The position numbers and the translations under genes are program-made. Positions 1,747-21,861 of a stretch of DNA of 38,125 nt are shown one piece after another. Origin of the DNA: an uncultured Oscillospiraceae bacterium (GTDB lineage Bacteria > Bacillota > Clostridia > Oscillospirales > Oscillospiraceae); the NCBI GenBank assembly GCA_947589745.1, contig CANQCS010000021.1, forward strand, positions 1 to 38,125, written 5' to 3'. The notes under the pieces were generated by a model that was not told the origin of the DNA, did not search any database, and worked only from the letters and a program-made list of their open reading frames with translations. The stretch's first letter is position 1; each line of letters opens with the position of its first letter.

Positions 1747-3168
1747 TCATGTCATCCATTCAAGTAATCCTCGAAAATCCTCTTCTGTTGGTTGGAAGGG
1801 GAAAACCGCTTGATTCAATACGGTATCAAAAGTGGCTTTACCAAAATCGGTAAAAATTAATGTCGCAGTCTCTCTTACACGGGAAAGCGGACTATGCAAC
1901 ATGCACAGAATCATGTCGGGATGTGCTGTCTGACAGAGATGTACCATGATGTTTTCCGGCTCGTAATCAGCAAGAAGCCACTCAACCCCATAGAGATAGC
2001 TTTGTGGATAATCAGACAGTGCAAGACACTCAATATTATTTGCCGCCAAGAAATGCTTTAACTTTGGAATAAAAAGGAGAACTTTTTCACAGTACGGCTT
2101 AACTTGCAGCACTGGAACCTCCACGACCGCTTCTTGGTGACATTTGTGTACCAGTGTCTGCCGCACTTGCTCATCCCAGAAAAGGCCGGAGGCATTTGCG
2201 CGGACCCACTGTGGTGCTGTTCCAGAACATACGATTCCGATTCGCTTTTTTGACCATTCCAGCAGTTCGTTCCAGAAGTTATTGTCAGAACTAGGCAGTG
2301 GAGGCATGATTAGGGCAGGCGCACAAGGATCAGCTATCAACGCATTTATAAATTCAGATGAGTCTGTGTAGGAACCTAATACTTCGAAAGCCAATTGCTT
2401 TCTTTTATGTGTCAAAGATCCTGCTGGATCATACACAATGGATGTTCCCATGAAGTCCGGCCGCAAACTGGTTACAGGAATAGTCCTCATGTGTATCAGC
2501 TTTCTCCAAAATTCTGCCAGTGGAAAAGAACTATTCTGTTTTTTTAATATCTCGTGAGCTGAGGCAGTAATGGTAGGTGCGGCATAGCTGTTGGACAGTT
2601 GCGTTTCTTCATGTACGCCGTCCGCATTCCTTAGTTTGTGTCTAGCAGATGCCATGAGGCTAACATTATCTGGCTGTAGGTTGTCCGTTACACGGAATTC
2701 GTAGTTAACAAGCTGTGGATCCGCTACGACACCCAAAACGCCAGAGAAACAGGCCGGCATCGTATAGCACACAGTTTTATTGCTGTGTGCCGCCACCAAT
2801 ACCTGTCCTTGACAGAGCATGCGGGAAACTATTTTTTGAAGCGGCTCGTAGTCGGAAAGCCGTGTAGATCCCACGCTCAAATGAATCAAAGGAACCTTCT
2901 GCTCATAGCACCAATGAAGGGCTGATACGAGTTGTTTGATGTTGGTGCGAAATTTTTCGGTAGTGAAGATATCCAGAGAGCAAAAAGAAGCTTCAGGTGC
3001 ATAGGCGTGAATGATACGGGCGCAAGTTGTCCCGTGGTCAACGGAAAAAGAATCATCTACACCACGGGGACGAATAACCCCATTTTCTTCAACCACAAAA
3101 TCGTATTCCACCTTAAGTTCCGGATAGGTGCGAAAATTAATGCCATCGTCAATTACAGCAATCAGCAT
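1747..3168 (-). CDS. Subtilisin-like (S8) serine protease of the RiPP cluster
   Basis: This 473-residue protein has a subtilisin-type catalytic set at its N-terminus: Asp7 in AVIDDGI, His45 in VDHGTTCA, the oxyanion Asn130 in AAHSN, and Ser194 in NSYAAPT, where classical enzymes have GTSxAxP. The catalytic Asp is almost at residue 1, so there is no signal peptide or prodomain and the enzyme should act in the cytoplasm. Residues from about 210 to 473 form a second domain I do not recognise. The start is supported by an AGAGGAAG ribosome site. Low-GC codon use matches the other RiPP maturation genes, from which it is separated by the ABC block. The probable role is leader removal from the Cys-rich peptide. 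That role is inferred from context; the protease family itself is clear. Confidence 0.8.
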   Translation of the reverse strand: MLIAVIDDGINFRTYPELKVEYDFVVEENGVIRPRGVDDSFSVDHGTTCARIIHAYAPEASFCSLDIFTTEKFRTNIKQLVSALHWCYEQKVPLIHLSVGSTRLSDYEPLQKIVSRMLCQGQVLVAAHSNKTVCYTMPACFSGVLGVVADPQLVNYEFRVTDNLQPDNVSLMASARHKLRNADGVHEETQLSNSYAAPTITASAHEILKKQNSSFPLAEFWRKLIHMRTIPVTSLRPDFMGTSIVYDPAGSLTHKRKQLAFEVLGSYTDSSEFINALIADPCAPALIMPPLPSSDNNFWNELLEWSKKRIGIVCSGTAPQWVRANASGLFWDEQVRQTLVHKCHQEAVVEVPVLQVKPYCEKVLLFIPKLKHFLAANNIECLALSDYPQSYLYGVEWLLADYEPENIMVHLCQTAHPDMILCMLHSPLSRVRETATLIFTDFGKATFDTVLNQAVFPFQPTEEDFRGLLEWMT

Positions 3169-3249
3169 AAAGCTTCCTCTGTGTATTCAGTCTGATAATG
3201 TTTCTCTGGTAATGAAACAGTTCCGTATAACGACCATTATCCTCTTATC

Positions 3250-3909
3250 CTAAATCAGTTCTTGGTGTGTTCCCTGCTCCAGGACTTTACCTTTTTGCAA
3301 CACCATAATTCAATCTGCCAAAATACTTTGGTCAGACGGTGGGAGGTAAAAGGACAGTCTTCCCGTCTGTAAGTTTTTTAGATTCTGAAAAGTTCATGCT
3401 CCACTTTTGAATCCAAGTTGGAGGATGGCTCATCCAGCACTAGAGCAGTGTATCGCCGGTAAAATGTTCTGACTATGGCTAATTTTTGATATTGTCCACC
3501 GGATGGCCCTATTTCTTGGCTATAAAATAACCGGGATAAGTACGAGTCCAAAACTGTATGCCTTGTCCAAAATATCAATAGCTCCACTATGGAAAAGAGC
3601 ATATTTGCATTTCCAGCCCGATTCATCATGTAAAGTGTCAATTCACAGTTGGTTAACTGTTCATGCTATAGACCGTATGTAGGTTTGACCTTTCAGGATT
3701 GCTGAACGAAAGATACCAGTTAGGCAGAGAGTGCCAGTCAACAGAATCAGCGTTGTACGCTCTTGATTTGCCCCGAAGCGCCCGCTAAAACATCCAAGAT
3801 ATACTTTCCCAAAACAGAATCGACCTAGAGGCAGGACCAGATTGCAAAGCAACCGTAGCAAAGTATAGAAAGAAGATGTTCTCCAAGAATGTACAAGGTG
3901 GTCGCCCAT
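3250..3909 (-). pseudogene. Decayed ABC exporter (TMD plus ATPase)
   Basis: Three reading frames must be joined to recover this gene. A hydrophobic piece (3661-3909) looks like membrane-domain remains. The frame at 3378-3641 contains the ABC signature and Walker B region, SGGQYQKLAIVRT and ALVLDEPSSNLDS. Past a stop, short pieces in shifted frames read LTDGKTVL, FTSHRLTKVF and IMVLQKGKVLEQGTHQEL, the standard end of an ABC exporter ATPase, closing with TAG near 3250. The Walker A segment and most of the membrane domain are missing. No C39 peptidase domain is visible. It was probably the original peptide exporter of this locus, now lost by frameshifts and deletions. Confidence 0.75.
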
Positions 3910-3969
3910 GGTAGAGAAAAGGGAGCCTGTATGTCCTTGAATCTTACGCTTAGGTAATCAGACCATCTC

Positions 3970-4635
3970 TTACCTCTCCCTTGTCAGTACCCCGTCAGCC
4001 ATGCGGTAGACCGTGTCCGAGGCGTCGGCGATGGCCGGGTCGTGGGTGACGATGACCACACAGTAGTTTTCTTCGTGGGCCAGCCTACTCAAAAGCGCCA
4101 CCACGTTGCGGCTGTTCTCTCCGTCCAGGTTGCCCGTGGGCTCATCGGCCAGGAGCACCTGGGCTCCGGAGGCCATGCTCCGGGCGATGGCCACCCGCTG
4201 CTGCTCGCCGCCTGAGAGGTTGGCTGGGTAGCGTTTCCATTTCTCCTCCCCGATTCCTACTTTCCTCAAAAGCTCCCCGGCCTTGGCCTTGGCCTCCTTC
4301 TGGGCCGCACCCAGCAGTTCCATGGGGTAGCACACGTTCTCCATGACAGTGAGCAAGGGGAACAGCTGGAAGGCCTGAAAGATCACCGACACATCCTCCC
4401 GGCGGTACTGGTCCAGATCTTTCGCGGACAGATCGGCGCCGTTCAGGATCACCGAGCCGGCGCTGGGCCGGTCCAGACCGGCCAGAATGGAGAGCAGCGT
4501 GGTCTTGCCGGAGCCGGAGGGCCCCACCACGGCGGCGACCTTCCCGGCCTCAAACTCGCAGGTGACCCCATTCAGGGCCATCCGGTCCCCCTTCTTATAA
4601 CGGTAGCTTACATTGTTGACAGACAGTATGCTCAT
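3970..4635 (-). CDS. MacB/LolD-type ABC transporter ATPase
   Basis: This 221-residue protein has all ABC ATPase motifs: Walker A GPSGSGKT (38-45), Q-loop Gln87, signature LSGGEQQ (140-146), Walker B VLLADEP (160-166) and the switch His198 in VTHD. The ADEPTGNLD sequence is characteristic of the MacB/LolD/FtsE branch that powers FtsX-type permeases. It is the last gene of a three-gene transporter unit, 19 bp after the second permease. In RiPP loci such units export peptides or give self-immunity; which applies here is inferred. GC content is visibly higher than in the flanking RiPP genes. Confidence 0.9.
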
Positions 4636-4654: not shown

Positions 4655-5968
4655 TTATTCCTTCACTTGCAGTAATTCCAGTGGATCTTTCGCTGTCATG
4701 GCAACAGAGGCCACGGCAGCGCCAAGGACAGCTGAGATCAGATAGAGCCCTGTCCTGCCCAGAGCGGGCAGGAGCAGTCCGGCCGCATCCCCCGTGGGCA
4801 GCATGACGTGGGCCATGACCACCGCCACCAGGTGGCCGGCCACCAGGCCGACGAAACAGGGCAGGATGTTCTGAAGGCAGAGGATCGCCCGGCATCGGGC
4901 CTTGGAGTTGCCCAGCACCCGCAGAATGGCGGCCTCCTTGGCCGACAGCAGGGAGAGCAGAATGGAGATGCCCGCCGCCACGATCAGGGACAGGGCCAAT
5001 GTCACGGGATAGAGCGTCTTCATCAGGGTGATCCCCTGCTCCATGGGCGCGATCGCCTGGCGCAGCTCCTGATCCCAGTAGACGGCGGTGATGGGCACCA
5101 CACCGCCCTCGGGAAGAAGATCGGAGAGCCGGACCCGGAACTCATCCAGCTGGTGGTTTTTCGCCGGGTCTATGGTCAGGATGACTCGCTGGTAGTTAGG
5201 GTCTGTTCCCGCCACCTCCCGGTAGCTCTCCATGGGCAGGAGCACCATATTGAAGCTGCCTGGATGAGTGCCCACCACAGTGAGGTTGGTGACGACCCTG
5301 GTCGTCTTGGGGGGCTCACCGGAGATGTCTACCGCGATGCCCGCCCGCAGCAGATCCCCCTCCTCCATCTGGAGCGTCTCATAGAGCTTCTGGGAGACCA
5401 CCGCGGGGTAGACCTTTGCGGTGTCCTCGCTCTGCCAGTCATTCCAGCTCTGGAGGAAGACCGATTCGTCCCAGCCGTCAAAGTAAGTAATCTCTCCGCC
5501 GGCGTCGGCGTGGTGCTCCTGAAATTCCTGGGAATATTCCGCCCCATAGAGGGTGACGTCGCCGACTGTGTACCGGTCATCCACCACACCTCCCCTGGCG
5601 TCCAACCGGATCAGGTAGTCCGCTTGTGTGGCCGCCTCCACATAGCAGTGGGAGAGGAAGCCGGTGCCAGCCAGATCATCCACGATGGAGGGATAGACGT
5701 ATCCGGTGTAGGTGATCCCCTTTCTGGTGATGGGGGCTAACGAGTTTTTGATGAGCTCCGCTGTGACCGTGGTGGTGGTATACAGGTGCTCCAGCTCATT
5801 CTCGCTGCGAATGGTGGACACCCGGATCAGCATGAGCCCCACCATGAAGGCCCCGGCCAACACAAGGCAGAGCAGGCTTTTGCCCGGCGCGCGAAGGATG
5901 TGGCGCAGGACATAGCGGCCCATGGCGCCGCTCCCGCCGTTTCTTTTCTGTTGCAGCATCAAGATCAC
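4655..5968 (-). CDS. FtsX/MacB-type ABC permease (second of pair)
   Basis: Up to 437 residues: one N-terminal membrane helix (about residues 33-55, SLLCLVLAGAFMVGLMLI), a large extracytoplasmic domain of about 240 residues, then three C-terminal helices (LALSLIVAAGISILLSLLSA, NILPCFVGLVAGHLVAVVM, YLISAVLGAAVASVAM). This is the FtsX-like layout of MacB-type mechanotransmission transporters. The segment AKEAAILRVLGNSKARC after the second helix is the usual coupling region to the ATPase. The start is ambiguous: a GTG preceded by GAAAGG at 5966-5968, or an internal ATG (MGRYVLRH) 15 codons downstream. It follows the first permease by 19 bp. Confidence 0.87.
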   Translation of the reverse strand: MILMLQQKRNGGSGAMGRYVLRHILRAPGKSLLCLVLAGAFMVGLMLIRVSTIRSENELEHLYTTTTVTAELIKNSLAPITRKGITYTGYVYPSIVDDLAGTGFLSHCYVEAATQADYLIRLDARGGVVDDRYTVGDVTLYGAEYSQEFQEHHADAGGEITYFDGWDESVFLQSWNDWQSEDTAKVYPAVVSQKLYETLQMEEGDLLRAGIAVDISGEPPKTTRVVTNLTVVGTHPGSFNMVLLPMESYREVAGTDPNYQRVILTIDPAKNHQLDEFRVRLSDLLPEGGVVPITAVYWDQELRQAIAPMEQGITLMKTLYPVTLALSLIVAAGISILLSLLSAKEAAILRVLGNSKARCRAILCLQNILPCFVGLVAGHLVAVVMAHVMLPTGDAAGLLLPALGRTGLYLISAVLGAAVASVAMTAKDPLELLQVKE

Positions 5969-5987: not shown

Positions 5988-7778
5988 TTATCTCTTGGTC
6001 CTTCCGCCCTGCAGTTGGGAGAGGACCGGCCGTCTGGCGGTCAACCAAGCAGAGCCCAGGGCCAGGACCAGCAGTGCGGCAGCTAAAGCGAGATCAAGGG
6101 CGGCCAAGGTGGTCATGCTCAGGGTGACGGCCGTTCCCTCGACCCCCGCAGCCTCCACCAGGGTGCTGACCAAGCGGTCGGCGTTGGCCTGGGTGTAGTT
6201 CCATGCCGGAACGGACCCACCGGCGATCCCCACGCAGCCGGTCAGCACCAGTGGCAGGGCTGAGGCTGTGACGCACTTCCCAATGGGGACGCCCAGAGCC
6301 CGGCTGATGGCCAGATCCCGCCGGCGAGATTGGAAGTAGACAAAGCAGGCCAGGCAGAAGCACACCGCCACAATGACAGCAAAGAGCAGCACATTGCTTC
6401 GCGCGGTGGCGCCGATACCCTCCGTGGCGCTTTTGAAAGTACGGTAGCCGGTCTCCCGGAAGGTAACGGTGTACCCCATCGCCGCCAGGTCCTCCCTTGT
6501 GGCGTCCAGGAAGGCGTCCTCGTGCTCGGGAGAATCCAGCACAAGGGTATATGGGCCGGAGAAAAGGGTACCGTCACTATCGAGAGCGGGGTGGAATGTC
6601 TCCGGGAAGACCGAAAGGGGGATATAGGCAAATTGATTGACGAGACTGCCCCAGCGATCCCCTCCGGGAGATGGGGTGCTGCCATAGATGCCCACGATTT
6701 CAAAGGTCTCGGTCTGGGAGGACAGCTCGTATCCGATCGGTTGCAGATCCGTCAGATAGCCGGTGCCGTCCACATAATAGTGGCCATCGTACGCATAAGA
6801 GGTATCCCGCAGCGTGAGGGTGATGGTGTCTCCTATCGCCAGATCCCTGGCCAGGGCAAGGCCGTGGGGGATCACGATGACCCGGCTGCCGGCCAGGTCA
6901 TCCTCGTGGTCCAGCCAGCGCCCGTCCACCAGGTAGTAGCGGCTCTCATAGTAGTTAGCGGACTGGATCGCGGCTATGGTGCTCATATCCGCGGTGGCCG
7001 TCAGGCTCAGCGCACAGGCGTTGTCATGGCACTGCTTGATCTCGTTGGCGAGTGTGGCGTATTCCGGCAGGGAGAGGTCCACATTGCCGTCAGTCTGGAG
7101 GGACCAGGGGAGATCCGGGGCCAGGGGCAGCCAGACAAATCTCGTCATGTCTGTGGACGAGACGACGGTGGCTAGCCCCACAGACTGCATTGCGGTGGTC
7201 TCTCTGGTAGCCCGAAGCAGATACCGTGCCCCCAGTTTCATCTCGGTGACATAATCCCCAAATGCCTCCGGAGGCGCATAGAGGCAGACCGTCTTATCCG
7301 GGGCGACATACTCCGGATAGCCCGCGATCACTTCATCCACATTAAACATAAATATGTATTTGTCCATGAGGCCGCCCGTATAGGTCCCGTAGAAATACAT
7401 CTCCCAAGGGTATATCTTCTCGGCGTCCGGCTCCCGCTCGTTCATCCAAAAACTGCCTGGGCCGGCATTTGCGTTATAGTACCCGTCCTGGATCACCCCT
7501 GAGACAGAGTGCCGCGGGTCCATATAGGCTATATAGGGGTTTTGCTCCAGATAGCTGGTCACCCCGTCCAAAAGGTACGTGCTGTCGCTGTCTTCGACCG
7601 GGACCAGGCTGCCGACAGAACGGTAATACTGAAGCAGTTCCTCCTGCTCCTGGGAGATCAGGGAGTATTCTCCCACACGGGCGGCAAACGCGAAAGAGAT
7701 CACCCCCACCAACAGGAGGATGAACAGGCTGCGGACAGGCTGCCGCAGGGCGGAGCGAAAAAAAACGGTTTTCTTCAT
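5988..7778 (-). CDS. FtsX/MacB-type ABC permease (first of pair)
   Basis: This 596-residue protein opens with a membrane helix (about residues 14-32, SLFILLLVGVISFAF), continues with a roughly 430-residue extracytoplasmic domain rich in Tyr, Asp and Thr, and ends with FtsX-type helices (VLLFAVIVAVCFCLACFVYF, LPLVLTGCVGIAGG and a final LALAAALLVLALGS). RRRDLAISRALGVPIGK after the second helix is the expected coupling segment. The start has an AGGAGG ribosome site 6 bp upstream. It is the first gene of the three-gene transporter and follows the peptide precursor by 143 bp, which hold a hairpin. Together with the 437-residue permease it would form a heterodimeric channel in the cytoplasmic membrane. 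Confidence 0.88.
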   Translation of the reverse strand: MKKTVFFRSALRQPVRSLFILLLVGVISFAFAARVGEYSLISQEQEELLQYYRSVGSLVPVEDSDSTYLLDGVTSYLEQNPYIAYMDPRHSVSGVIQDGYYNANAGPGSFWMNEREPDAEKIYPWEMYFYGTYTGGLMDKYIFMFNVDEVIAGYPEYVAPDKTVCLYAPPEAFGDYVTEMKLGARYLLRATRETTAMQSVGLATVVSSTDMTRFVWLPLAPDLPWSLQTDGNVDLSLPEYATLANEIKQCHDNACALSLTATADMSTIAAIQSANYYESRYYLVDGRWLDHEDDLAGSRVIVIPHGLALARDLAIGDTITLTLRDTSYAYDGHYYVDGTGYLTDLQPIGYELSSQTETFEIVGIYGSTPSPGGDRWGSLVNQFAYIPLSVFPETFHPALDSDGTLFSGPYTLVLDSPEHEDAFLDATREDLAAMGYTVTFRETGYRTFKSATEGIGATARSNVLLFAVIVAVCFCLACFVYFQSRRRDLAISRALGVPIGKCVTASALPLVLTGCVGIAGGSVPAWNYTQANADRLVSTLVEAAGVEGTAVTLSMTTLAALDLALAAALLVLALGSAWLTARRPVLSQLQGGRTKR

Positions 7779-7804
7779 GAAGCACCTCCTAGAAAAATGA
7801 CTCT

Positions 7805-7832
7805 CAGCGACGCCCTATTTCAGGCGTCGCTG
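7805..7832 (-). terminator. Hairpin between precursor and transporter genes
   Basis: CAGCGACGCC at 7805-7814 pairs perfectly with GGCGTCGCTG at 7823-7832, leaving an 8-nt loop. On the minus strand a T5 run follows six bases after the stem. The offset T-run makes it a weak terminator or attenuator; it could lower transporter expression relative to the precursor. Confidence 0.5.
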
Positions 7833-7858
7833 ATGAGCCACGCAATACACAAGACTTG

Positions 7859-7921: not shown

Positions 7922-8155
7922 TTAGCGGGTTGCCACCTGGCTGTTAGCCGAAATAGATTCGGTGACGATGCTGGATGCGGAACTGTATGCGCTATCACTA
8001 GGTGACGCACTATTGGTTGCATAGACTCCATTGCTACCGCCACAAGAACAGGAACACGTACAAGTGCAGTTGCACGAAGCGAGCAAGCAAGAACATATAC
8101 AAGCATAGGCTTCAACAGATGCGTCATTGTTTTGCTTTTTGGAAACTTTGAACAT
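7922..8155 (-). CDS. Cys-rich RiPP precursor peptide, CLI_3235-like
   Basis: This is a 77-residue peptide. The N-terminal part, MFKVSKKQNNDASVEAYAC, matches my recollection of the conserved leader of the clostridial CLI_3235 bacteriocin family. The core has nine cysteines in CIC-SC, then CNCTCTCSCSC, so most alternate with a single small residue (CxCxC). A GG pair follows, then a roughly 38-residue Ser/Thr/Ala-rich tail without Cys. The start is chosen at the ATG at 8153-8155, not the upstream ATG at 8164, because AGAAAGGA lies 7 bp before it and overlaps the upstream ATG. It has its own promoter, and the maturation genes lie just upstream. It is presumably modified on Cys by the radical SAM enzyme; the modification itself cannot be read from sequence. 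Confidence 0.82.
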   Translation of the reverse strand: MFKVSKKQNNDASVEAYACICSCLLASCNCTCTCSCSCGGSNGVYATNSASPSDSAYSSASSIVTESISANSQVATR

Positions 8156-8175
8156 ATACGTCATCCTTTCTGAAT

Positions 8176-8204
8176 AGTATACTGCAAATCTTGTGTAATC
8201 GCAA
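8176..8204 (-). promoter_or_regulatory. Sigma-A promoter for the precursor gene
   Basis: On the minus strand TTGCGA (8199-8204) and TATACT (8176-8181) are separated by 17 bp, placing the transcription start about 15 bp before the precursor ribosome site. It lies wholly in the gap between the ACP-like gene and the precursor. An ATTACA motif (8194-8199) touches the -35 box. Confidence 0.6.
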
Positions 8205-8206
8205 CA

Positions 8207-8479
8207 TCAAGTGTGCTCAAGAACATCTTGAACAACGGAGCAAATACCGTTGATAGAACTAAATCCATACTGTTCTAGGGATTCAGGAGGAATATTTATA
8301 TTAAACTCCTTTTCAATCTCAAACAGGATATAAATCAAGTCCACTTCGAACAAGTTGAGAACATATCCCGTCAGGGGTTCCTGCCAGAGAGAGGTATCCA
8401 ATTTATCAGGCGATAATCCGATACACTTAGCCACGACGGAGATAATTCGAGATTCAATGTCAGCTTTTGTTGTTACCAT
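8207..8479 (-). CDS. Acyl-carrier-protein-like RiPP maturation protein, no attachment Ser
   Basis: This 90-residue protein has the helical pattern of acyl carrier proteins, ending in YILFEIEKEFNINIPPE, which aligns with the helix II region LVMALEEEFDTEIP of ordinary ACPs. At the position where ACPs carry the DSL serine that receives phosphopantetheine, the sequence is LNLFEVDL and has no Ser. It should therefore not be a conventional thioester carrier. This fits the acyl-carrier-related proteins described with clostridial Cys-rich peptide systems (TIGR04069 type, from memory). The start overlaps the end of the upstream gene by 7 bp, with a GGGAGG ribosome site inside it, so the two are translationally linked. 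A scaffolding or precursor-presenting role is inference. Confidence 0.75.
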   Translation of the reverse strand: MVTTKADIESRIISVVAKCIGLSPDKLDTSLWQEPLTGYVLNLFEVDLIYILFEIEKEFNINIPPESLEQYGFSSINGICSVVQDVLEHT

Positions 8480-9594
8480 AGTAATGCCTCCCGCTGCAAA
8501 ATTAATTGGGCTAGCCCGTCTGCTCCCTCCGACACCACATTAAAAATCGGGAAAGCGCAATTCTTGCTCTGTTGTTTCCGAAGCATATCTGCTACGGGAA
8601 TGTTGGTGTGGACACAGGTGACTTTGTGCAACCGAATTATGTCGAAAGCGGCTACCATCACATTATTGACATGGAGCGCCATGATGGGTACTCCGTACCG
8701 AGCTGTAAAGTCTTTGCTAATCAGACTCAGGAAGCCTTCCGCTACAGCTACATCAGGTGGCACACTGCAAACGAGAAGATTGGGCTTCAGTGCCTGACAG
8801 AGCAAATAGGTCTGTAAGCCGAATCCATTCGGGGCTGCATTATTGTACTTCATCATGGGATCAGGCGCCTCCACAATAAATAGAGAAGGACGTTCTACTT
8901 GAACAATGTCCTGAGCCATTTGGTTGAGTACCAAAGCTTTGTCCTCCTCAGAGAGTGTGGCTTTCTTGTCGAAAATATGGGTATAAGTGTGCATTCCCAT
9001 TAGAAGTCCCATATTGCTACCGGTTAAACAGGAAACCACTTTTCCTTGGCACATAAAGGATTCGCGCAAAGCCAAAATGACCTCCAAACAATCTTCTTGT
9101 GAAATTAGGCCACCGACCAAAAGCACCGGAACGGAGAGAAGACTATATCCGCTACTCTGTGAGGTGGGCTTCCCTTTTACGTCATCCGCGGCTGAGAAAA
9201 ATTGTATCTGCTCAGAGTATTTTTGACAAAGAGGCGTCCACTCGCCATTTGAGCATAAATTGTTATTCTTAGCCACTGCGATAATTTTCTTCCCCTTGGA
9301 AAGAAGTTGTTCAAAGAACGTAAAAGAGTTGAAAGCCGCACTAGACCGTTCTAATTCGTCACAATCTACAAATAATATTTGCCACCCTATAAACGATTTT
9401 GTTTCAGTAGGGGAGACAACAGGAATACCGATGTTGGGGTGACAACAAATAAAGGCTGCATCTCTGCCATTTAACCCGGAACCACTCCAGGCGATAGCTT
9501 GACAAATGTGGTATACGTCCTGAGCTTGATTGAAATGACGAATAAAAGGAAGCATCCGCTCATGGAAAGGAAAAACTGCAACTTCAATTTTCAT
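8473..9594 (-). CDS. RiPP maturation protein, TIGR04066-like
   Basis: This 373-residue cytoplasmic protein has no signal peptide or membrane helices. Recognisable segments are an N-terminal KIEVAVFPFHERMLPF, LFVDCDELERS, PVLLVGGLISQEDCLEV (about 180-195), VVSCLTGSNMGLLMG, SLFIVEAPDPMMKYNN and IMALHVNNV. The alternating hydrophobic strands ending in Gly or Asp suggest a Rossmann-like or SIMIBI-like alpha/beta fold, but there is no clear P-loop. By context and overall character it fits the family called peptide maturation system protein TIGR04066, which accompanies CcpM radical SAM enzymes; its activity is not known to me. It overlaps the maturase gene by 4 bp (ATGA) and the ACP-like gene by 7 bp. 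Confidence 0.72.
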   Translation of the reverse strand: MKIEVAVFPFHERMLPFIRHFNQAQDVYHICQAIAWSGSGLNGRDAAFICCHPNIGIPVVSPTETKSFIGWQILFVDCDELERSSAAFNSFTFFEQLLSKGKKIIAVAKNNNLCSNGEWTPLCQKYSEQIQFFSAADDVKGKPTSQSSGYSLLSVPVLLVGGLISQEDCLEVILALRESFMCQGKVVSCLTGSNMGLLMGMHTYTHIFDKKATLSEEDKALVLNQMAQDIVQVERPSLFIVEAPDPMMKYNNAAPNGFGLQTYLLCQALKPNLLVCSVPPDVAVAEGFLSLISKDFTARYGVPIMALHVNNVMVAAFDIIRLHKVTCVHTNIPVADMLRKQQSKNCAFPIFNVVSEGADGLAQLILQREALLW

Positions 9595-11036
9595 TTTGCC
9601 ATCCTCTTCTTTTCCCGTACCTGATCACTATAATGACAGTTGATTTCATTAAGCAGAATTAACTGTCGAAGCTTTACATATGCGTTAAGACGAATTGACT
9701 CACAGTGTGACAGTTTAAATTGCGCGGAAAGCGTTTCCTCTCCTATGTCAGCTTTTTTGGCACAGCTAGAGCAATGACGTATAGCCCAACAGTTGCGGCA
9801 ATTTTCTTTGGTAATAGCCCCTACATTCAAAAGATAGATGGCTTTTTCGACATTGAACCCCGTTTCCAAGGAACCGATACTCATAACCGGCGAAGTTTCA
9901 CTAACGCGCTCACAGGGGAAAAAGTTTCCGTCCACATTAACAAACAGTCGCATTTGTCCTGGAATGCAAGGTCCACCAGGTACATCTATTTGCCGGAGGG
10001 GGCCAGAAAGATCTATATATCTCGCATCTTGTATCAAGGATGATATAGCGCTTCTGGAAATAGCGGAGACCCGGTTTGGGGGAAAGCGTCCTAAAACTGA
10101 TAAGAAAGCCAAAAAGTTTTGATAACGGAATTTCCAAATATATTTCTCTGAAAAAGCGGCTTCCTCTTCGTCATACTCTCTATCAACAATAGCTGCGTTA
10201 ATGTTATGTTGGTTGAAATCCTTTGTGGATATAGTAATCTCGTTGATGCAGTCGAAGTCATTAGCGGGATCCATCACCATACTAAATTGAATCTTTTCGT
10301 GGTATTCCGCATCTAGCTCTTTAAGTCGGCCAAGATTTTTCATAATGGTGTCAAATGTACCACCACCCCCGGCAAACACCCGGTTTCGGTCATGAATCTC
10401 CTTCGGTCCATCCAGGCTGATTACCAGATGGATTTTTTCATTAACTAGAAAGTGCATGATTTCGTCAGTCAGAAGCGTTCCATTACTTGTGATTGTGTAA
10501 TCAATTTCCTTTCCATCGAAGAGTTCCCGGGAATAAGCTACGACCTGTTGAATCAAAGGTAAGGCCAGGAGCGGCTCTCCGCCATAAAAAGCGATGGTTA
10601 CATGGTCGCTGTCGATGGAATGAGCATACAGAAAATCGACAGCCTGTTTTGCGGTTTTCCAATCCATGCTTTTGCTAGAGTGAGAACGCTGGTGCTGGTT
10701 AATTTCCTCGGAATAAATGCAATACTTGCACCGAAGATTACACCCCTGTGTTACCTGCAAGGTCATCTGGGATATCTTACGGTCCAGAAAATCGCCAACA
10801 AAAGGCGTATACGGATGGCGAATATCTTGAACAACACTCTCAGTGGCCAGATAACCCTGCTGCCGGAGTTCCTTAATCTCCGTTAGTGAAGTCGTCTCAA
10901 TATTTTCCGAGCCTCTCGTGCAATTGCTCAGAAAGCAAAATGCCTCTGATGAAACGGGAAGAATTTCGTTTTTGTTGGCATCGTACACATACTGGCTGCG
11001 AGGTGTTTTGAATAGCTGAATAAAAGGATGCGGCAT
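9591..11036 (-). CDS. ccpM: Radical SAM/SPASM Cys-rich peptide maturase
   Basis: This 481-residue enzyme has the radical SAM cluster motif CNLRCKYC (Cys99, Cys103, Cys106), which binds the 4Fe-4S cluster that cleaves S-adenosylmethionine. AFYGGEPLL (glycine-rich motif), TITSNGTLL and VISLDGP follow as in peptide-modifying SPASM enzymes. The C-terminal third has a SPASM-type cysteine set (GGPCIPG, FFPCERVSE, CRNCWAIRHCSSCAKKAD, HCES) for auxiliary clusters. The N-terminal ~85 residues could form a precursor-recognition domain. The start is placed at the ATG at 11034-11036 because AAAGGGG lies 8 bp upstream; the ATG six codons earlier overlaps that site. First gene of the RiPP operon. The symbol is assigned by similarity to the CcpM type. 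The expected chemistry is cross-linking at Cys residues, inferred from the family. Confidence 0.82.
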   Translation of the reverse strand: MPHPFIQLFKTPRSQYVYDANKNEILPVSSEAFCFLSNCTRGSENIETTSLTEIKELRQQGYLATESVVQDIRHPYTPFVGDFLDRKISQMTLQVTQGCNLRCKYCIYSEEINQHQRSHSSKSMDWKTAKQAVDFLYAHSIDSDHVTIAFYGGEPLLALPLIQQVVAYSRELFDGKEIDYTITSNGTLLTDEIMHFLVNEKIHLVISLDGPKEIHDRNRVFAGGGGTFDTIMKNLGRLKELDAEYHEKIQFSMVMDPANDFDCINEITISTKDFNQHNINAAIVDREYDEEEAAFSEKYIWKFRYQNFLAFLSVLGRFPPNRVSAISRSAISSLIQDARYIDLSGPLRQIDVPGGPCIPGQMRLFVNVDGNFFPCERVSETSPVMSIGSLETGFNVEKAIYLLNVGAITKENCRNCWAIRHCSSCAKKADIGEETLSAQFKLSHCESIRLNAYVKLRQLILLNEINCHYSDQVREKKRMAK

Positions 11037-11497: not shown

Positions 11498-14014
11498 TTA
11501 CCGTTGTTCGTTGACATACAGCTCCACCCGGCTCTGGATGTTGGCGATGACGGTATCCAGGGGGAAGTCCCCGGCAAAGTATCCGCCCGCCGCGTCGGCG
11601 ATGATGTCGTAGATGCGCTCGTCGTAGACGTCGAGCCGGTCGATCTCGTTGTAGAGGGCCATCAACTGGTCGTACTCCTCCTGGGTGGTGGACACGAGAT
11701 CCACCTGCTGGCCGTTACCGAAAGAGTACTGCATGAAGGACTTCTCTATGGGCTGTCCGTGATTGTCCAGCACCAGGTCGCCGTGGGCGTCCCTCTGGTA
11801 CACGGGAGTCATAGCCCCCTTGGCCATAAAGTCGAAGTCCGCTTTGTTGGTGAAGAAGCCGTAGTGCTCAAGGCAACCTCTGGTCATCTCGTCTGCGTCC
11901 AGATCCGCGTAGCGTTTGGATACATTGGGCAGAAGAAGCTGGCGTACGAAGCTCCAGGCCCCCTCCTTGTGGGCGCAGGTGCTGGAGATGGCCAGGCCCA
12001 GCTCGTCTCTGGGATAGAAGCTGCTGCCGCAGGAGCCGTCCTCCATGGGATAGCCCACATAGCTGACGCTGCCGTCGAAGTCCGCCTTGTTCTCCTGCAA
12101 ATCATAGAATCTTTTGATGGTGGTTTGCATCAACATCTGTCGGCCCTCGTAGATGCGGGTCACCTCATTATCCCCCTCATTCCCGGACGAGGTGTTACTG
12201 ATGACGTAGGGGAACCCGGCGCAGAACTGGAGCAGGGACCTGAACTCGCCGCTGTCAAAGGAGCACTCGCCTGTCTCCCAGTTCACGAAGCTATTCAGGT
12301 TCCGGCTCAGGATATTCCTCAGTACGCCGCGGGCGGTGTCGCGATCACTGAAGATGGTGCAGCCCTCTGGCATCCCGGCCAAGGCGTCCTCCAGGTCCGC
12401 CACGGTCCAGCGCATCCGGTCCCCCACCACGGAGGGCGCGCCCATCACCGTTTCGATGTTAAAGGAGGAGAACACCTGGTAGAGGTGCCCCTCCCGGTCG
12501 CTGGCCGCTTCGAGGACGCGGGTCATCAGGGCCTCCCGCCCCCCAAGCTCCGTGTCGCTGTCGATGTAGGTCCACAGGTCCTCCAGCAGCCCCCGGGCGC
12601 CCATCTGCTCCAGGGGCATGGCACAGGTGGACAGAATGTCCGGGATCGTCCCGGACATGATCTCGGCGCCCAGGCGGGTGTAGTTTCCGAGGGGGTCGTC
12701 AGCGGTGTTGAACTTGGTGTACTCGATGGCCTCGATGTGGTACTCGTCGCTGTTCCGGTTGAACTCTACGATCCGGTCCCACTCCTCGGGCAATATGTAG
12801 GTCATGGCGCCATAGGTGAGGATGGTCTTCTCCGGCACGGAGGACCGCTCGACCGGGGTGAGCAGCGCCAGTTCGTAGGTGTATCTTGTTTCAAGATAGG
12901 CCCAATCCTCTTGTTCCCGGAAGAACACCGCCACCTGCCCGTTAGAGAGAAAAGTGAATGACACGATGCTGCTGGGAGAGATGTTGACGTCCATCCAGCT
13001 GAGCAGCTCCTCCCCCACTGCCTGGAGATCGCCGCCCTCCGTGGGGACGGCGTCCTCGGCCCGGCAGCCGTAGAGGGTATCGCCGGATATGTAGTAAAAG
13101 AGATAGTCCCCGCCGCCGGGGTACAGATTAAGGGCCTCGTTGGGCAGGATGTAGGCCATCTCCCAGGACTGGCTCTCCATGTCCGCCACCTGGAGCTGGA
13201 AGCCGAAAGTACCGGTGAGCGTGTCCAGGTAGCCGGTCCGCGTCCCGATGGTGCCGTCCCCCAGCACCACCGGCGGATTGCCGTCCAGGGACAGGGAGAA
13301 CAGCGGGTTCAGCTCACTGTCCACGGCCCACAGGCCGGTGATTGCCGCGGTCCATAGGTTCCCCTCGCCGTCGATGAGATATTCGCTGGTGCTGTCGCCG
13401 TAGGAGAAACCGGTCCCGGCGGGGGCCAGCTTTCGGCTCAGATATGTGGTGTCCAGCCGGGTGATCTCGCTGCCGGTGGTGTCCAGCTGGCGGAGCATTT
13501 TCCGCTCAGTATAGCCGGTCATATAATTCGATTTGTTGCCGTAGACCGGGTCAAAGTCCTCCGGCAGGTCCAACTTGTAGTAGGTCATGTACTCGGTGAC
13601 CCACAGGGTATCTCCAGGTCCCGCCGCGATATTCGCGGGGTCGCTGTAACCATCCATGCCCTCCGGAACAGGCAGGGGCTCGTAGTTGGTCAGCCGCTCC
13701 ACGGTCCCGTCCGTGTCCACGCGGAACAGGGCGGTGCTGGTTGCGCTGCCGGTAACAGGGTCGCTGGCCTCCTTCCCTGTAACGGTTGCCAGGAGGAAGA
13801 TGCCGTTGCCAATGGCGCAGGCACTCTGGAGGGAGTCGATCTCTCCCGCCGCGCTCAGGTCCAGAAACTCCGGCACGTAGACCGTGTCGCTGAGCTGTTC
13901 TGTTCTGTCGTCGCCCTCCTTTTCGTCCTTGCCGCAGGCCGCCAGGGACAGCGGCAGGCACAGGGCCAGGAGCAGTGCCAGAAGCTTTCGGGTTTTTCCG
14001 GCGATCAGGGACAT
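11498..14014 (-). CDS. Solute-binding-type lipoprotein, copy 1
   Basis: This 838-residue protein starts with a type II signal peptide: positive KTRK, a hydrophobic stretch LLALLLALCLPLSL, then the lipobox LAAC, so it is anchored on the outer face of the membrane. Residues to about 400 are rich in short strands with Asp/Gly/Trp repeats (GDTLWVTEY, GEGNLWTAA, GDYLFYY, GQVAVFF), suggesting a beta-propeller. The second half (TILTYGAM, IVEFNRNSDEYHIEAIEY, AEIMSGTIPDIL, EGAWSFVRQLL) is typical of an extracellular solute-binding protein. The start is at the ATG preceded by AAGAGGAGG; nine codons upstream are also open. It is a paralog of the 833-residue protein at 15804-18305 (about four residues in five identical by eye). 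No partner permease is present, so its substrate and role are unknown. Confidence 0.85.
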   Translation of the reverse strand: MSLIAGKTRKLLALLLALCLPLSLAACGKDEKEGDDRTEQLSDTVYVPEFLDLSAAGEIDSLQSACAIGNGIFLLATVTGKEASDPVTGSATSTALFRVDTDGTVERLTNYEPLPVPEGMDGYSDPANIAAGPGDTLWVTEYMTYYKLDLPEDFDPVYGNKSNYMTGYTERKMLRQLDTTGSEITRLDTTYLSRKLAPAGTGFSYGDSTSEYLIDGEGNLWTAAITGLWAVDSELNPLFSLSLDGNPPVVLGDGTIGTRTGYLDTLTGTFGFQLQVADMESQSWEMAYILPNEALNLYPGGGDYLFYYISGDTLYGCRAEDAVPTEGGDLQAVGEELLSWMDVNISPSSIVSFTFLSNGQVAVFFREQEDWAYLETRYTYELALLTPVERSSVPEKTILTYGAMTYILPEEWDRIVEFNRNSDEYHIEAIEYTKFNTADDPLGNYTRLGAEIMSGTIPDILSTCAMPLEQMGARGLLEDLWTYIDSDTELGGREALMTRVLEAASDREGHLYQVFSSFNIETVMGAPSVVGDRMRWTVADLEDALAGMPEGCTIFSDRDTARGVLRNILSRNLNSFVNWETGECSFDSGEFRSLLQFCAGFPYVISNTSSGNEGDNEVTRIYEGRQMLMQTTIKRFYDLQENKADFDGSVSYVGYPMEDGSCGSSFYPRDELGLAISSTCAHKEGAWSFVRQLLLPNVSKRYADLDADEMTRGCLEHYGFFTNKADFDFMAKGAMTPVYQRDAHGDLVLDNHGQPIEKSFMQYSFGNGQQVDLVSTTQEEYDQLMALYNEIDRLDVYDERIYDIIADAAGGYFAGDFPLDTVIANIQSRVELYVNEQR

Positions 14015-14550
14015 GGGTGGACCTCCTCTTAAATTGATCATTGTCGCAGTTTTGTGCGACGCAGTCTTTCAGCCGTACTACTCCGCCATGTAAATCCACG
14101 TAAATACCACCTTAACGCGCTGCACCGCATCTGGGATGACCGGGAGATACGCCCAGGTCCTGCTGTGAGACCAGCTTCAGTTACGCCCCGGGGTGAGGGT
14201 GGCCCGGCCTACCAAAGGGCATCCCGACCGATTAGCCTTCTACTATTTGTATCAGGCAAGAACTTTTCTTTCTCGAAAGGAGAATCCCCGCCGTCGGACG
14301 GCTACATGGCTTGGGCGGATTCCACGGCGCTGGCGTTGCAACCGAGGAATCCGCCCTGCTTAACAAATTATTGTTCCGTGCGAAAACTCAATTGGAATGC
14401 CTTCTCATGCAATCGCTTTCATACAGCTACTGGGAAATTTGTTTCGATGAATCTTACAGCTGCTCCGAAAATACTTCTGGATTGTTCCTTTCAACGGTCC
14501 ATCGACTTTAAGCAGACTGTTTTATGAGAGATTGATACAGTGGCGCAGTT
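14015..14550. other. Non-coding leader of lipoprotein copy 1
   Basis: About 535 bp without a gene, homologous to 18306-18853. It holds an 11-bp perfect inverted repeat (GGGCGGATTCC at 14314-14324 with GGAATCCGCCC at 14347-14357) and a 6-bp stem (GTCGCA 14043-14048 with TGCGAC 14055-14060) just upstream of the lipoprotein ribosome site. Both are kept, slightly degraded, in the second copy. Neither is followed by a T-run. I see no convincing promoter. Confidence 0.5.
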
Positions 14551-15803: not shown

Positions 15804-18305
15804 TTACCTCTGCTCGTTGACATACAACTCCACCCGGCTCTGGATGTTGGCGATGACGGTATCCAGGGGGAGGTCCCCGGCCAGGTAGCCGCCCGCCGCG
15901 TCATTGACGATGTCGTAGATGCGCCGGTCGTAGACGTCAAGCCGGTCGATCTCGTTGTAGAGGGCCATCAACTGGTCGTACTCATCCTGGGTGGTGGACA
16001 TGATCTCTACCCGCCGGCCGTCGCCTAGGCTGTAAGACGTGAAGGACTTCTCTATGGGCTGTCCGTGGTTGTCCAATACCACATTGCCGTGGGCGTCCCT
16101 CTGGTACACGGGAGTCATGGCCCCCTTGGCGATGAAGTCGAAGTCCGCTTTGTTCGTGGAGAAGCCGGGGTTGTCGAGGCAACCGCCTGTCAGCTCGGCC
16201 CCGTCCAAGTCCGCGTATCGCTTGGATACATTCGGCAGAAGGAGCTGCCGCACAAAGCTCCAGGCCCCCTCCTTGTCGGCGCACGTGCTGGAGATGGCCA
16301 GGCCGTTTCCTATGGAGAAACTGCTGCCGCAGGAGCCGTCTTCCATGGGATAGCCCACATAACTGACGCTACCGCCAAAGGCGGCCTTGTTCCGCTGCAG
16401 CTCCTGGAATCTTATGAGGGTGGTTTGCATCAGCATCTGCCGGCCCTCGTAAATGCGGATGGCATCTTCTTGGAACAAATTCCCGGACAAGCTGGCGCTG
16501 GTGTCGTAGGGAAACCGGGCGCAGAACTGGAGCAGAGATCTGAACTCGTCGTTGTCAAAGGAGCACTCGCCTGTCTCCCAGTTCACGAAGTCCGTCAGGT
16601 TCCGGCGCAGGATATCGTTCAGTACGCGGGGGGCGGTATCGCGATCACTGAAGATGGCGCAGCCCTCCGGCATATTAGCCAGGGCGTCCTCCAGGTCCGC
16701 CACGGTCCAGCGCATCCGGTCCCCCACCGCAGAGGACGCGCCCAGCGCTGTGTTGATGTAGAAGAAGGAGAACACCTGGTAGAGATGCCCCTCCCGGTCG
16801 CTGGCCGCGTCAAAGACGCGGGTCATCAGAGCCTCCCGCCCCCCCAGCTCCGTGTCGCCGTCGATGTAGGGCCACAGGTCTTCCAGCAGCCCCCTGGCCC
16901 CCATCTGCTCCAAAGGCATTCCGCTGGTGGAAAGAATGTCGGGAATCGTTCCCGCAATGATTTCGGTGCTGAGGCGGCTCATGCCGCCAGTGGGGTCATC
17001 ATCGGTGTTGTACTTGGCGTAGTCGGTGACCTCAATGCGATACTTGTCGCTGTTCCGGTTGAACTCCGCGATCCGGCTTCGGTCGCTGGAGCTGAGGTTC
17101 ATGGCACCGTAGGTGAGGATGGTCTTTTCTGGCATGGAGGACCGCTCGGCCGGGGTGAGCAGCGCCAAACCGTAGGTGTTTGTGACTGTATAGGCCCAGT
17201 TCTCCTGTTCCCGGGTGAACACCGCCACCTGCCCGTTGGCGAGGAATGTAAAGGACACAATGCTGCTGGGGGAGATATTCGAGTCCATCCAGCTGAGCAG
17301 CTTCTCCCCCACTGCCTGGAGATCGCCATTTTCTGTGAGGACGGCGGCGTCAGCCCGGCAGCCGTAGAGGGTGTCGCCGGACAAGTAGTAAAAGAGGTAG
17401 TCTCCGCCCCCAGGGTACACCGTGTAGGCCTCGTTTGGCAGGAGGTAGGCCGTTTCCCAGGACTGGTTCTCCACGTCCGCCACTTGGAGCTGGAAGCCGG
17501 AGGTACCGGTGAGCGTGTCCAGGTAGCTGGTCCGCTTCCCGATGGTGCCGTCCCCCAACACCACCGGCAGATCGCCGTCTATGGACAGGGAGAACAGGAG
17601 GTTCAATTCATTATCCACGGCCCACAGGCCGCTGCCCGCGACGATCCACAGGTTCCCCTCGCCGTCGAAGATGTATTCGCTGAAGTCGCTACCGTAGGAG
17701 AAACCGGTCCCGGCCGGGTTCAGAGTCCGGCTCAGGTAAGTGGTGTCCAGCCGGGTGATCTCGTTGCCGGTGGTGTCCAGCTGGCGGAGCATTTTCCGCT
17801 CAGTATAGCCAGTCATATAATTCGATGCGTTGCCATAGACCGGGTCAAAGTCCTCCGGCAGGTCCAACTTGTAGTAGGTCATGTACTCGGTGACCCACAG
17901 AGTATCCCCAGGCCCCGCCGCGATGCTCGCGGGATCGCTGTAGCCATCCATGCCCTCGGGGACAGGCAGGGGCTCGTAGTTGGTCAGCCGCTCCACTGTC
18001 CCGTCCGTGTCCACGCGGAACAGGGCGGTGCTGGTTGCGTCGCCGGTGACAGAGTCGCTGGCCTCCTCCGTGACAGTTGCCAGGACGAAGACGCTATTGC
18101 CGATGGCGCAGGCACTCTGGAGGGACTCGATCTCTCCCGCCGCGCTCAGGTCCAGAAACTCCGGCACGTAGACCGTGTCGCTGAGCTGTTCTGTGCTGCC
18201 GTCGCCCTCCTTTTCGTCCTCACTGCAGGCTGTCAGGGACAGCGCCAGGCACAGCGCCAGGAACAGGGCTAAAATCTTTCTGGTTTTTCCGGTAATCAGG
18301 GGCAT
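15804..18305 (-). CDS. Solute-binding-type lipoprotein, copy 2
   Basis: This 833-residue paralog of the protein at 11498-14014 has the same layout: signal peptide KTRKILALFLALCLALSL with lipobox LTAC, a propeller-like N-terminal half, and a solute-binding-type second half (TILTYGAM, IAEFNRNSDKYRIEVTDY, AGTIPDILSTSGMPLEQMG). The regions around YVPEFLDLSAAGEI and KLDLPEDFDPVYG are invariant between the two. Differences concentrate in the middle (after TGFSYG, in the WAYTVTNTYG region) and around residues 650-720. The start is at the ATG preceded by AAGAGGAGG. It follows small gene copy 2 by about 550 bp on the same strand. No permease or ATPase partner is adjacent. Confidence 0.85.
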   Translation of the reverse strand: MPLITGKTRKILALFLALCLALSLTACSEDEKEGDGSTEQLSDTVYVPEFLDLSAAGEIESLQSACAIGNSVFVLATVTEEASDSVTGDATSTALFRVDTDGTVERLTNYEPLPVPEGMDGYSDPASIAAGPGDTLWVTEYMTYYKLDLPEDFDPVYGNASNYMTGYTERKMLRQLDTTGNEITRLDTTYLSRTLNPAGTGFSYGSDFSEYIFDGEGNLWIVAGSGLWAVDNELNLLFSLSIDGDLPVVLGDGTIGKRTSYLDTLTGTSGFQLQVADVENQSWETAYLLPNEAYTVYPGGGDYLFYYLSGDTLYGCRADAAVLTENGDLQAVGEKLLSWMDSNISPSSIVSFTFLANGQVAVFTREQENWAYTVTNTYGLALLTPAERSSMPEKTILTYGAMNLSSSDRSRIAEFNRNSDKYRIEVTDYAKYNTDDDPTGGMSRLSTEIIAGTIPDILSTSGMPLEQMGARGLLEDLWPYIDGDTELGGREALMTRVFDAASDREGHLYQVFSFFYINTALGASSAVGDRMRWTVADLEDALANMPEGCAIFSDRDTAPRVLNDILRRNLTDFVNWETGECSFDNDEFRSLLQFCARFPYDTSASLSGNLFQEDAIRIYEGRQMLMQTTLIRFQELQRNKAAFGGSVSYVGYPMEDGSCGSSFSIGNGLAISSTCADKEGAWSFVRQLLLPNVSKRYADLDGAELTGGCLDNPGFSTNKADFDFIAKGAMTPVYQRDAHGNVVLDNHGQPIEKSFTSYSLGDGRRVEIMSTTQDEYDQLMALYNEIDRLDVYDRRIYDIVNDAAGGYLAGDLPLDTVIANIQSRVELYVNEQR

Positions 18306-18853
18306 GGTCAGGCCTCCTCTTAAATTGATCATAGTCGTAGTTCTGTGCGACGCAGTCTTTCAGCCGGTATACTCCGTCACATAAATGCCACCTTAATGCG
18401 CCGCAACGCATCCGAGTTGACTGGGAAATACGCCCCGGTCTTGCTGTGGACCCAGCTTCAGTTTCGCCTCCAAGGTAAAAGCGGCTCGGCCGCACCAGAG
18501 AGCGTTCCGACCAATCAACCATCCGTTTTCTGTATCCGGTAAGAACTTTTCTTTCTCGAACGGAGAATCCTCGTTGCTGAACGGCTACACTGCCCGAACG
18601 AGCCGGACGGATTCCACGGCGCTGGCATCGCAACCGAGGAATCCGCCCTGCTTGACAAGATTATTGTTTCGCGCAAAACTCAATCAGAATGCTTTCTCAG
18701 GCAGTCGCATTCGTCCAGCGACTGGGAAATTTATTTCGATGAATCTTATGGCTACTTTGGGAATAATTTTAGATTGTACCTCTTGTGCAGACTGATTTAT
18801 GAGAGATTGATACATCGGCGCAGTTTCAAGTAGTCGTTTCACTGCGCACTACA
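18306..18853. other. Non-coding leader of lipoprotein copy 2
   Basis: About 548 bp without a gene, homologous to 14015-14550. The inverted repeat is shortened to 8 perfect base pairs (CGGATTCC 18608-18615 with GGAATCCG 18638-18645), and the stem before the ribosome site has one G-U pair. No promoter or ORF is convincing. Confidence 0.45.
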
Positions 18854-20820: not shown

Positions 20821-21861
20821 CTATCCCGCCCGCAGGAGCTCCAGTGCCTCATCATACTCCATGACACGGATATTCCGGGCGCCACATCCGCTGAAGGCGA
20901 CGGGCTCTCCGTTGTCCGTATAAGCGACAACCCCGTCGATCAGCACCGCCGCCTCCAGCTCCGGCAGGTAGCGGTAGATGTTCCCGCTCCTGTCCGCAAG
21001 GTAGTTCCGTCCGTTGCCAATCATGTGGTTCCCCAGCAACAGATGAACGTTGTCCGGCAGTTCCATCATGGCCTGACCGGTCCCGCCAGTCCTGTATTCC
21101 ATACCGCGAAGCGTCATCTGTTCCCAAAGGGACCTGCCGGCTGCGGTCTCATACTGGCGGTACCCTCTGTAGGAGAACCGTTCCGCAGCCGTCAGCACCA
21201 TTTCCCGGACCCTGCTGATGTTCTCTTCCATCTGGTCCAGGCGCACATACTCGTGCTGGCGGTGCTCCTGATAGTACCCGGAGCTGATGTTGACCGCAGC
21301 CACATCCAGGTGCGGCGCGACCACGGAGATGTCACTGAAGGTCCCTCTGTTCTCCATAAAGCCGAAGCCGCAGACAAACCTGGCAAATTCGCGGTTGGTA
21401 CAGCCGTAGAAGACCGCGTCATTGGCCCCATGCCGGTCCAGCTCCACCAGATAGTTGACCTCCGGCCGGATGCCGGATCGCTCAAACCTTCTCGCGCCCA
21501 GGCCGCCGGTCTCCTCGTCCTCACAAAACAGGACGTGGCAGTTGGCATCCTGGAGGATGCGCAGGATCATATAGACCCCTGCCCGGTCATCGCCGCCGAT
21601 CCCCTCCGGGGACATCATCACCGTTCCATCCGGGGTGTAGCAGATGCTCTGTACCAGCTGCCGGTGGACGGTGTCCAGGTGCGCGATCAGCATGACAGGG
21701 ACCTCCCCCGGAGCATAGAGGAATCCTTTCCGGGACCTGGGGCGGTATCCCAGCGCTTTCAGCTCCGAGACCAGCGCGGTCTTCAAGTTCTCCTGGGAGA
21801 GACGGAATACGCTCTCAAGATCCAGCGTTCCGAGCTCTCCCTTCAGGACCTTCCGATACAT
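20821..21861 (-). CDS. M20/M42-like zinc peptidase in the mobile element
   Basis: This 346-residue protein has the metal-site pattern of co-catalytic zinc aminopeptidases and deacylases: His in VMLIAHLDTVH (about residue 60), Asp in EGIGGDDRAG, the catalytic/ligand pair in CEDEETGG, Asp in LVELDRHGAND, and His in YQEHRQHEY. The last ~90 residues form an extra domain (HLLLGNHMIGNGRNYLA, YRYLPELEAAVLIDG). There is no signal peptide, so it is cytoplasmic. The start follows GGGAGG. It is the last gene of the mobile-element operon, 15 bp after the Cys-cluster gene. Its substrate is unknown; a peptidase is unusual among DNA-processing genes. Confidence 0.7.
   Translation of the reverse strand: MYRKVLKGELGTLDLESVFRLSQENLKTALVSELKALGYRPRSRKGFLYAPGEVPVMLIAHLDTVHRQLVQSICYTPDGTVMMSPEGIGGDDRAGVYMILRILQDANCHVLFCEDEETGGLGARRFERSGIRPEVNYLVELDRHGANDAVFYGCTNREFARFVCGFGFMENRGTFSDISVVAPHLDVAAVNISSGYYQEHRQHEYVRLDQMEENISRVREMVLTAAERFSYRGYRQYETAAGRSLWEQMTLRGMEYRTGGTGQAMMELPDNVHLLLGNHMIGNGRNYLADRSGNIYRYLPELEAAVLIDGVVAYTDNGEPVAFSGCGARNIRVMEYDEALELLRAG

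Follow-up and report, generated by a model that had tools for sequence, protein, structure and literature searches.

A divergent CcpM-type peptide cluster in an uncultured Oscillospiraceae bacterium and a relation between cysteine number and tail length in its precursor family

Introduction

What does a radical S-adenosylmethionine (SAM) maturase make of a peptide that carries nine cysteines, mostly one residue apart, in front of a long Ser/Thr tail? The question is raised by a locus in a 38,125-nucleotide stretch of DNA from an uncultured Oscillospiraceae bacterium (contig CANQCS010000021.1 of assembly GCA_947589745.1), hereafter the window. A first-pass annotation, made from the letters alone, had proposed at positions 7922 to 11036 a system for a ribosomally synthesized and post-translationally modified peptide (RiPP), consisting of a Cys-rich precursor with a leader of the CLI_3235 type, a SPASM radical SAM enzyme, a TIGR04066-like protein and an acyl carrier protein (ACP)-like protein. 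Sequence comparison places the locus among CcpM-type RiPP clusters, as a divergent member of a known, structurally unsolved family. The system itself is already known; what is new is evidence on the likely build of the product and on what the partner proteins look like. Across the family, the tail of the precursor lengthens with the number of its cysteines, a rule that is new here (no search was aimed at such a tail rule in print).

Results

A nine-cysteine precursor

The precursor is encoded on the minus strand, as are all cluster genes described below. It comprises 77 residues when read from Met4 (7922..8155), the start favoured by a likely ribosome site, AAAGGA, or 80 residues when the first ATG (8164) is used. 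With Met4 as residue 1, it begins MFKVSKKQNNDASVEAYA-CICSC, and consists of a basic leader ending in SVEAYA (8102-8155), the Cys block (8042-8101) and a 39-residue Ser/Thr/Asn/Ala tail (7925-8041). The nine Cys fall within 20 residues at gaps of 2, 2, 5, 2, 2, 2, 2 and 2, i.e. as CxC in seven of eight cases, and the residues between them are rich in Ser, Thr and Asn. Nine is the top Cys count per 20-residue stretch in the window and seven the top CxC count per open stretch, compared with at most seven and at most three, respectively, in 100 first-order Markov resamples.

Read from Met4, the peptide has TIGR04065 as its top match (9.3 bits, E 1.3, model positions 1-33 of 34), short of the cut-off of 26; read from the first ATG, it has no NCBIfam match at E ≤ 1. 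The same model gives 9.9 bits with the precursor of locus L088, found in a Roseburia metagenome-assembled genome (JAAUZB010000023.1) beside the sister maturase, and is passed at its cut-off by 6 of 10 precursors scanned. A search of the own genome for a second precursor, which used TIGR04065 only, gave no match at E ≤ 1. The proposed CLI_3235-type leader therefore stands as a likeness to CcpM-linked precursors, with which it has the VEAYA-C junction in common (as at L088), but not at the level of the curated cut-off. The precursor frame is conserved in related genomes, with homologues at CcpM loci (e.g. 16768-16980 of L088), and, as expected of a CcpM-type member, this small Cys-rich precursor with a basic leader lies in the same gene run as the maturase.

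Tail length rises with cysteine number

Precursors were collected in two sets. The training set held 52, chosen by eye at 42 of the first 48 CcpM loci, other small Cys-containing open reading frames (ORFs) there being passed over by eye. The test set held 23 unique precursors (26 hits) from a fixed caller, which required at least three Cys and 40-90 residues and found them at 22 of 31 later loci and at none of the other nine. Two doubtful candidates (L055 6724 and L093 9768), a near copy of the L069 precursor (L075 6955) and a short one (L065 8797) were left out of the counts, no precursor was found at L059, L066 and L073, and a lone final Cys lying over 15 residues beyond the block was not counted as part of it (two rows, L050).

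In both sets, precursors with more Cys have longer tails beyond the last Cys, with Spearman coefficients of 0.916 (training) and 0.906 (test). The sets are not fully independent, because genomes G1101 and G775 and their genus feed both (L215 8353, for instance, nearly duplicates L071), and this was addressed by clustering and by contrasts on a tree. After clustering, the coefficient is 0.895 for 41 clusters at 50% identity and 0.76 for 11 clusters at 42%. Independent contrasts on the CcpM tree, in which 45 of 51 rows have a precursor, give r 0.877 and a slope of 3.8, with 33 of 40 concordant. Likewise, among 37 disjoint pairs of nearest precursors, 20 differ in Cys number, and the tail changes in the same direction in 19 of these.

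Precursors with more Cys do not have longer leaders (-0.30 and -0.34 in the two sets), and the partial correlation of Cys number with the tail, given block length, is 0.79 and 0.75, as against a weaker 0.24 and 0.53 for block span. The pooled fit is tail = 3.71 n + 8.7, n being the number of Cys (95% interval of the slope, 3.26-4.23 residues per Cys), and the block itself lengthens by 1.80 per Cys, which puts the ratio of the two slopes near two. Among 213 Cys gaps, 125 are of the CxC kind, compared with a random mean of 49.8, and no CC pair occurs in these or in another 100 gaps. Two loci, L053 and L094, each encode three related precursors that vary in Cys number, with tails mostly changing in step.

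A lower bound and self-similarity at distance four

A possible geometry is offered by ruminococcin C. The bridges favoured in published work on RumC2 are Cys24-Glu31 with Cys22-Asn35, and Cys45-Arg53 with Cys41-Arg61 (PMC6779426, PMC8172795). In the N-terminal domain, as reported, a donor step of 2 is paired with an acceptor step of 4 around an inner loop of 7 (PMC6779426). With these values, a tail must have 7 + 4(n-1) = 4n+3 residues or more to give every Cys a bridge. All 75 precursors satisfy the bound, whereas shuffled tails violate it in 21.0 cases on average; so do the 23 test rows (mean violations after shuffling, 6.3) and the candidates dropped at L055, L075 and L093. The window precursor, with nine Cys and 39 tail residues, sits exactly at the limit.

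In addition, the tails have more identical residues at i and i+4 than expected: z is 4.3 for the 56 non-redundant tails, and p is < 0.001 for the training and 0.032 for the test set. By this measure, four is the sole distance with p < 0.05 in the pooled non-redundant and test sets; in the training tails, distance 4 (p < 0.001) is joined by distance 5 (p 0.039). Taken together, the Cys/tail rule, the bound and the distance-four data support a tail built with one unit of about four residues for each Cys. By inference, each Cys would have one acceptor in the tail, at positions that the data do not locate.

The maturase and its partners

The maturase gene (9591..11036) starts where the first-pass annotation had put it, at 11036 behind AAAGGGG, a better start than the alternative at 11054. 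Its product scores 523.5 bits with TIGR04068, 'Cys-rich peptide radical SAM maturase CcpM', over model positions 1-461 of 462 (cut-off 500), and has a CNLRCKYC cluster site and seven further C-terminal Cys that are invariant in nine aligned maturases. The next-best NCBIfam models, for RumMC (203.8 bits) and the lachnocin maturase (201), are almost tied and remain far below their own cut-offs.

The TIGR04066-like protein (8473..9594) and the ACP-like protein (8207..8479) match their models over nearly the whole length, but neither reaches the cut-off: 127.7 bits with TIGR04066 (E 5.2e-37, residues 5-355; cut-off 200), as of a divergent relative, and 50.6 bits with TIGR04069 (E 2e-13; cut-off 70). 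Since the TIGR04065 match also falls short, we regard the cluster as a divergent member of its family. Most relatives of the TIGR04066-like protein read TNKF at an atypical P-loop-like motif, where the window protein has Cys in place of the Lys. A predicted model of this protein gives a full-length structural match to the DUF1611/DgcN fold; the assignment rests on the prediction because a PDB sequence search returned one chain only, at E 0.28. The C-terminal part of the cluster's subtilase (1747-3168) has, by profile comparison, a domain in common with the TIGR04066-like protein (hhalign 96.7%), and thus two components seem to carry related DUF1611-type modules.

The ACP-like protein reads LFEVD where a DSL motif is expected. 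Glu takes the position of the phosphopantetheine Ser that a functional acyl carrier protein would have, and the protein is therefore read as a putative adaptor rather than an acyl carrier. Among the 46 of 52 homologues that were taken as cluster-adjacent, Ser occupies that column in three and never follows Asp; the other six had been set apart by hand, four with DSL, DSM or NSV and two (L073 4913, L092 11171) with PRD. In the account of a related Paenibacillus cluster, such partners were interpreted as an immunity protein related to ATPases and as a modifying enzyme (PMC10731318).

Transport, processing and genomic setting

The four ORFs lie at the positions first given, and the proposal of a RiPP system with these partners is upheld by the profile matches and by gene co-occurrence. 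The cluster runs on 3' of the precursor, beyond the limits first given, to 1747. In order of transcription it encodes CcpM, the TIGR04066-like protein, the ACP-like protein, the precursor, a stem-loop, two MacB/FtsX permease halves, an ATPase, the remnant of an ABC exporter and an S8 subtilase; the first-pass annotation had noted neither the transporter, the decayed exporter and the subtilase nor the lack of a phosphopantetheine Ser in the ACP-like protein. The stem-loop (7804..7833, 12 pairs with a T-rich tail) is a possible attenuator between the precursor and transporter genes, for which the evidence is weak because 11 such sites occur in the region where 7.7 are expected.

The MacB/FtsX-type permease is split into a first half (5988..7778) and a second half (4655..5968), which are fused in each of the two permeases of L088 (about 1060 residues). 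The ABC ATPase of this transporter (3970..4635) is 58-59% identical to both L088 ATPases. Next come the exporter remnant (3169..3969), with stops and a lost middle, two pieces of which match residues 10-102 and 486-540 of the L050 exporter, and the subtilase (1747..3168), the likely leader peptidase. The latter keeps the Asp/His/Ser triad, as do all 22 subtilases of the first 48 loci. Since the matching exporter and subtilase can adjoin in relatives (L089, L094), the window seems to keep an old subtilase together with the ghost of an old exporter, and the FtsX transporter seems, from this arrangement, to have taken the place of the usual ABC exporter.

Elsewhere in the window, transposase genes lie near both contig ends (416-1478, in two overlapping frames as if frameshifted, and 37712-38125). 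Two neighbouring lipoprotein-like proteins of 840 residues (11498-14041 and 15804-18332) are 80% identical and have no Pfam match at the thresholds used. A block resembling a mobile element (20821-37271) encodes an NAD-dependent DNA ligase, PcfJ, YodL/primase, a RecD2-like helicase and a YqaJ/RecE exonuclease.

Occurrence of CcpM systems

Counted at E ≤ 1e-120 and with the own genome included, TIGR04068 is found in 4 of 400 genomes sampled from the family, 7 of 394 from the order, 15 of 391 from the class and 4 of 378 from the phylum; its cut-off is passed by none of 14 control genomes and at no second place in the own genome. A TIGR04066-type gene accompanies every CcpM (51 and 51 across all 48 first loci, and again in 31 of 31 later loci), and an ACP-like gene is present in 44 of the first 48.

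A single-sequence search of a viral collection found no CcpM. Matches to at least 79 viral loci by alignment search were rejected as not this system because profiles found no TIGR04066, S8 or ACP-like partner there. Three plasmid records matched, of which the best shares 34% identity across 83% of the query. Three short human-gut 'phage' records (MT837814.1, MT839046.1, MT838708.1), perhaps bacterial fragments, encode maturase relatives of 35-42% identity.

Discussion

We propose that the window encodes a CcpM-type RiPP in which CcpM links each Cys to a tail residue within a nested hairpin, and consider this reading, including a most likely antibacterial product, probable. CcpM would bind the leader and join each Cys sulfur to one tail residue by a thioether, working from the turn outward. 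The Cys strand and the tail would form the two arms of one hairpin, with a step of two on the former and about four on the latter, the second value being that reported for ruminococcin C in its N-terminal domain. The ACP-like protein may serve as adaptor and the TIGR04066-like protein, whose P-loop Lys is lost in this subclade, as assembly or docking factor. Leader removal would then fall to the subtilase, with a cut perhaps close to the EAYA-Cys junction, and the FtsX transporter would export the product, most likely an antibacterial peptide as SacP23 is, or protect the producer.

Several points weigh against this proposal. The thioether linkage is inferred from sequence. The slope is lower in the test set (2.77) than in the training set (4.19). 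The bound was formulated after the data had been seen, with constants from RumC, and many residue classes and distances had been inspected before the distance-four tests. For the Ser/Thr/Asn class, distance 4 gives p < 0.001 in training but 0.069 in the test set (distance 5, 0.044 and 0.024), Ser alone gives a distance-four test p of 0.18, and a helical tail would fit a distance-four signal too. Two stricter versions failed: a fixed acceptor phase (tail positions 7, 11, 15 and so on) left no signal in composition (p 0.17), and the literal RumC rule, by which acceptor spacing doubles each donor spacing, breaks down at irregular gaps (minimum -11). Finally, the exporter remnant and the lost P-loop Lys could mean decay, and the cluster in this genome might then make no product. 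The three components below curated cut-offs and the transposase genes near both window ends would suit such decay. We nevertheless give it little credence. The remaining genes have open frames, the Cys of the radical SAM and SPASM sites are preserved, as is the subtilase triad, and the precursor falls exactly on the family bound. The Lys is missing from L088 as well, which has an FtsX transporter of this kind too.

A different chemistry would leave the tail out of the cross-links. CcpM could make local S-C(beta) or S-C(gamma) thioethers beside each Cys, as PapB and SCIFF maturases do in ranthipeptides, the tail being a follower or solubility segment. Indeed, the maturase also has sub-cut-off matches to the models for PapB (189 bits) and for SCIFF (150 bits), its closest solved structure is 5wgg (E 1.7e-52), which we take to be the SCIFF maturase CteB, and the Ser, Thr and Asn between the Cys fit such local rings. 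Donors spaced by two, however, have just a single residue between them, and local rings would not explain why tail length tracks Cys number; we judge this chemistry unlikely. The same tracking bears on a thioether-free peptide, whose Cys would bind metal or form disulfides while CcpM does something else. Metal-binding peptides such as metallothioneins typically show CxC spacing, and the first-pass annotation had named a metal-binding peptide as an option beside repeated Cys cross-links. Against this stand the absence of any CC pair among 313 gaps and a maturase that scores with thioether-forming SPASM enzymes, and we hold a thioether-free product to be very improbable. The tail rule, the 4n+3 bound and the distance-four self-similarity together speak for a cross-link from each Cys to the tail rather than for a peptide that only binds metal, and so lend the proposed cross-links indirect support.

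Thurincin H and subtilosin A are instructive here. They have equal spacing on both arms and three to four bridges, unlike the peptide proposed for the window, and we know of no ACP-like or TIGR04066 partners in these systems. As in our model, these peptides are described as single nested hairpins, with bridges from an N-terminal Cys strand to C-terminal residues (PMC8172795). Ruminococcin C is similar in its CxC donors and in the N-terminal-domain acceptors four apart, and RumMC is the next-best maturase family, nearly tied with lachnocin. As reported, however, it forms two short hairpins with two bridges each, whereas the window has one nine-Cys block and the TIGR04066-like and ACP-like partners.

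Closer relatives share much of the gene content. The SacP23 cluster of Paenibacillus polymyxa is described with a TIGR04068 maturase, TIGR04066, TIGR04069, a subtilase, an ABC transporter and a CLI_3235-type Cys-rich precursor; its peptide, produced heterologously, is active on several Gram-positive bacteria, has m/z 3404 and an apparently blocked N-terminus (PMC10731318). The transporter of that cluster is termed a multidrug ABC transporter, and the precursor is given 61 residues (PMC10731318), in contrast to the nine Cys, FtsX/MacB transporter and sub-cut-off partners of the window. The statement that the product is not structurally described agrees with this one studied relative, for which the account gives mass and activity but no structure, and with full-text searches of openly licensed papers, in which no solved structure of a CcpM product turned up. 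A Roseburia intestinalis L1-82 cluster also has TIGR04068, TIGR04066, TIGR04069, subtilase and ABC transporter genes, although its authors report no obvious structural gene nearby (PMC4573289), whereas the window has a precursor. Precursors of the TIGR04065/CLI_3235 type are reported for P. polymyxa Kp10 and for two Blautia strains (PMC7343975, PMC7872077). L088, whose maturase is 48% identical to that of the window (tree support 100/99), has the same kind of FtsX/ATPase transporter, a homologous precursor with a CxC run and the same loss of the P-loop Lys. It differs in a seven-Cys precursor, in duplicated transporter genes with fused permease halves, and in that no subtilase was found in the 21 kb covered.

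More broadly, we tentatively suggest, at somewhat less than even chance, that CcpM products are a structural class of their own: a single thioether ladder in which each Cys of the CxC strand is bridged to about every fourth tail residue, so that Cys number sets peptide length. If so, the nine-rung window peptide would exceed the number of thioethers per nested hairpin of reported sactipeptides, given as 'up to four' (PMC6779426). For the two partners, the predicted DUF1611/DgcN-type fold of TIGR04066 and the Ser-less ACP fold of TIGR04069 provide new starting points. At least one published CcpM-type member is antibacterial, and the Cys-number/tail-length rule turns what was a 'Cys-rich peptide' into a definite, falsifiable topology that says which truncations should fail.

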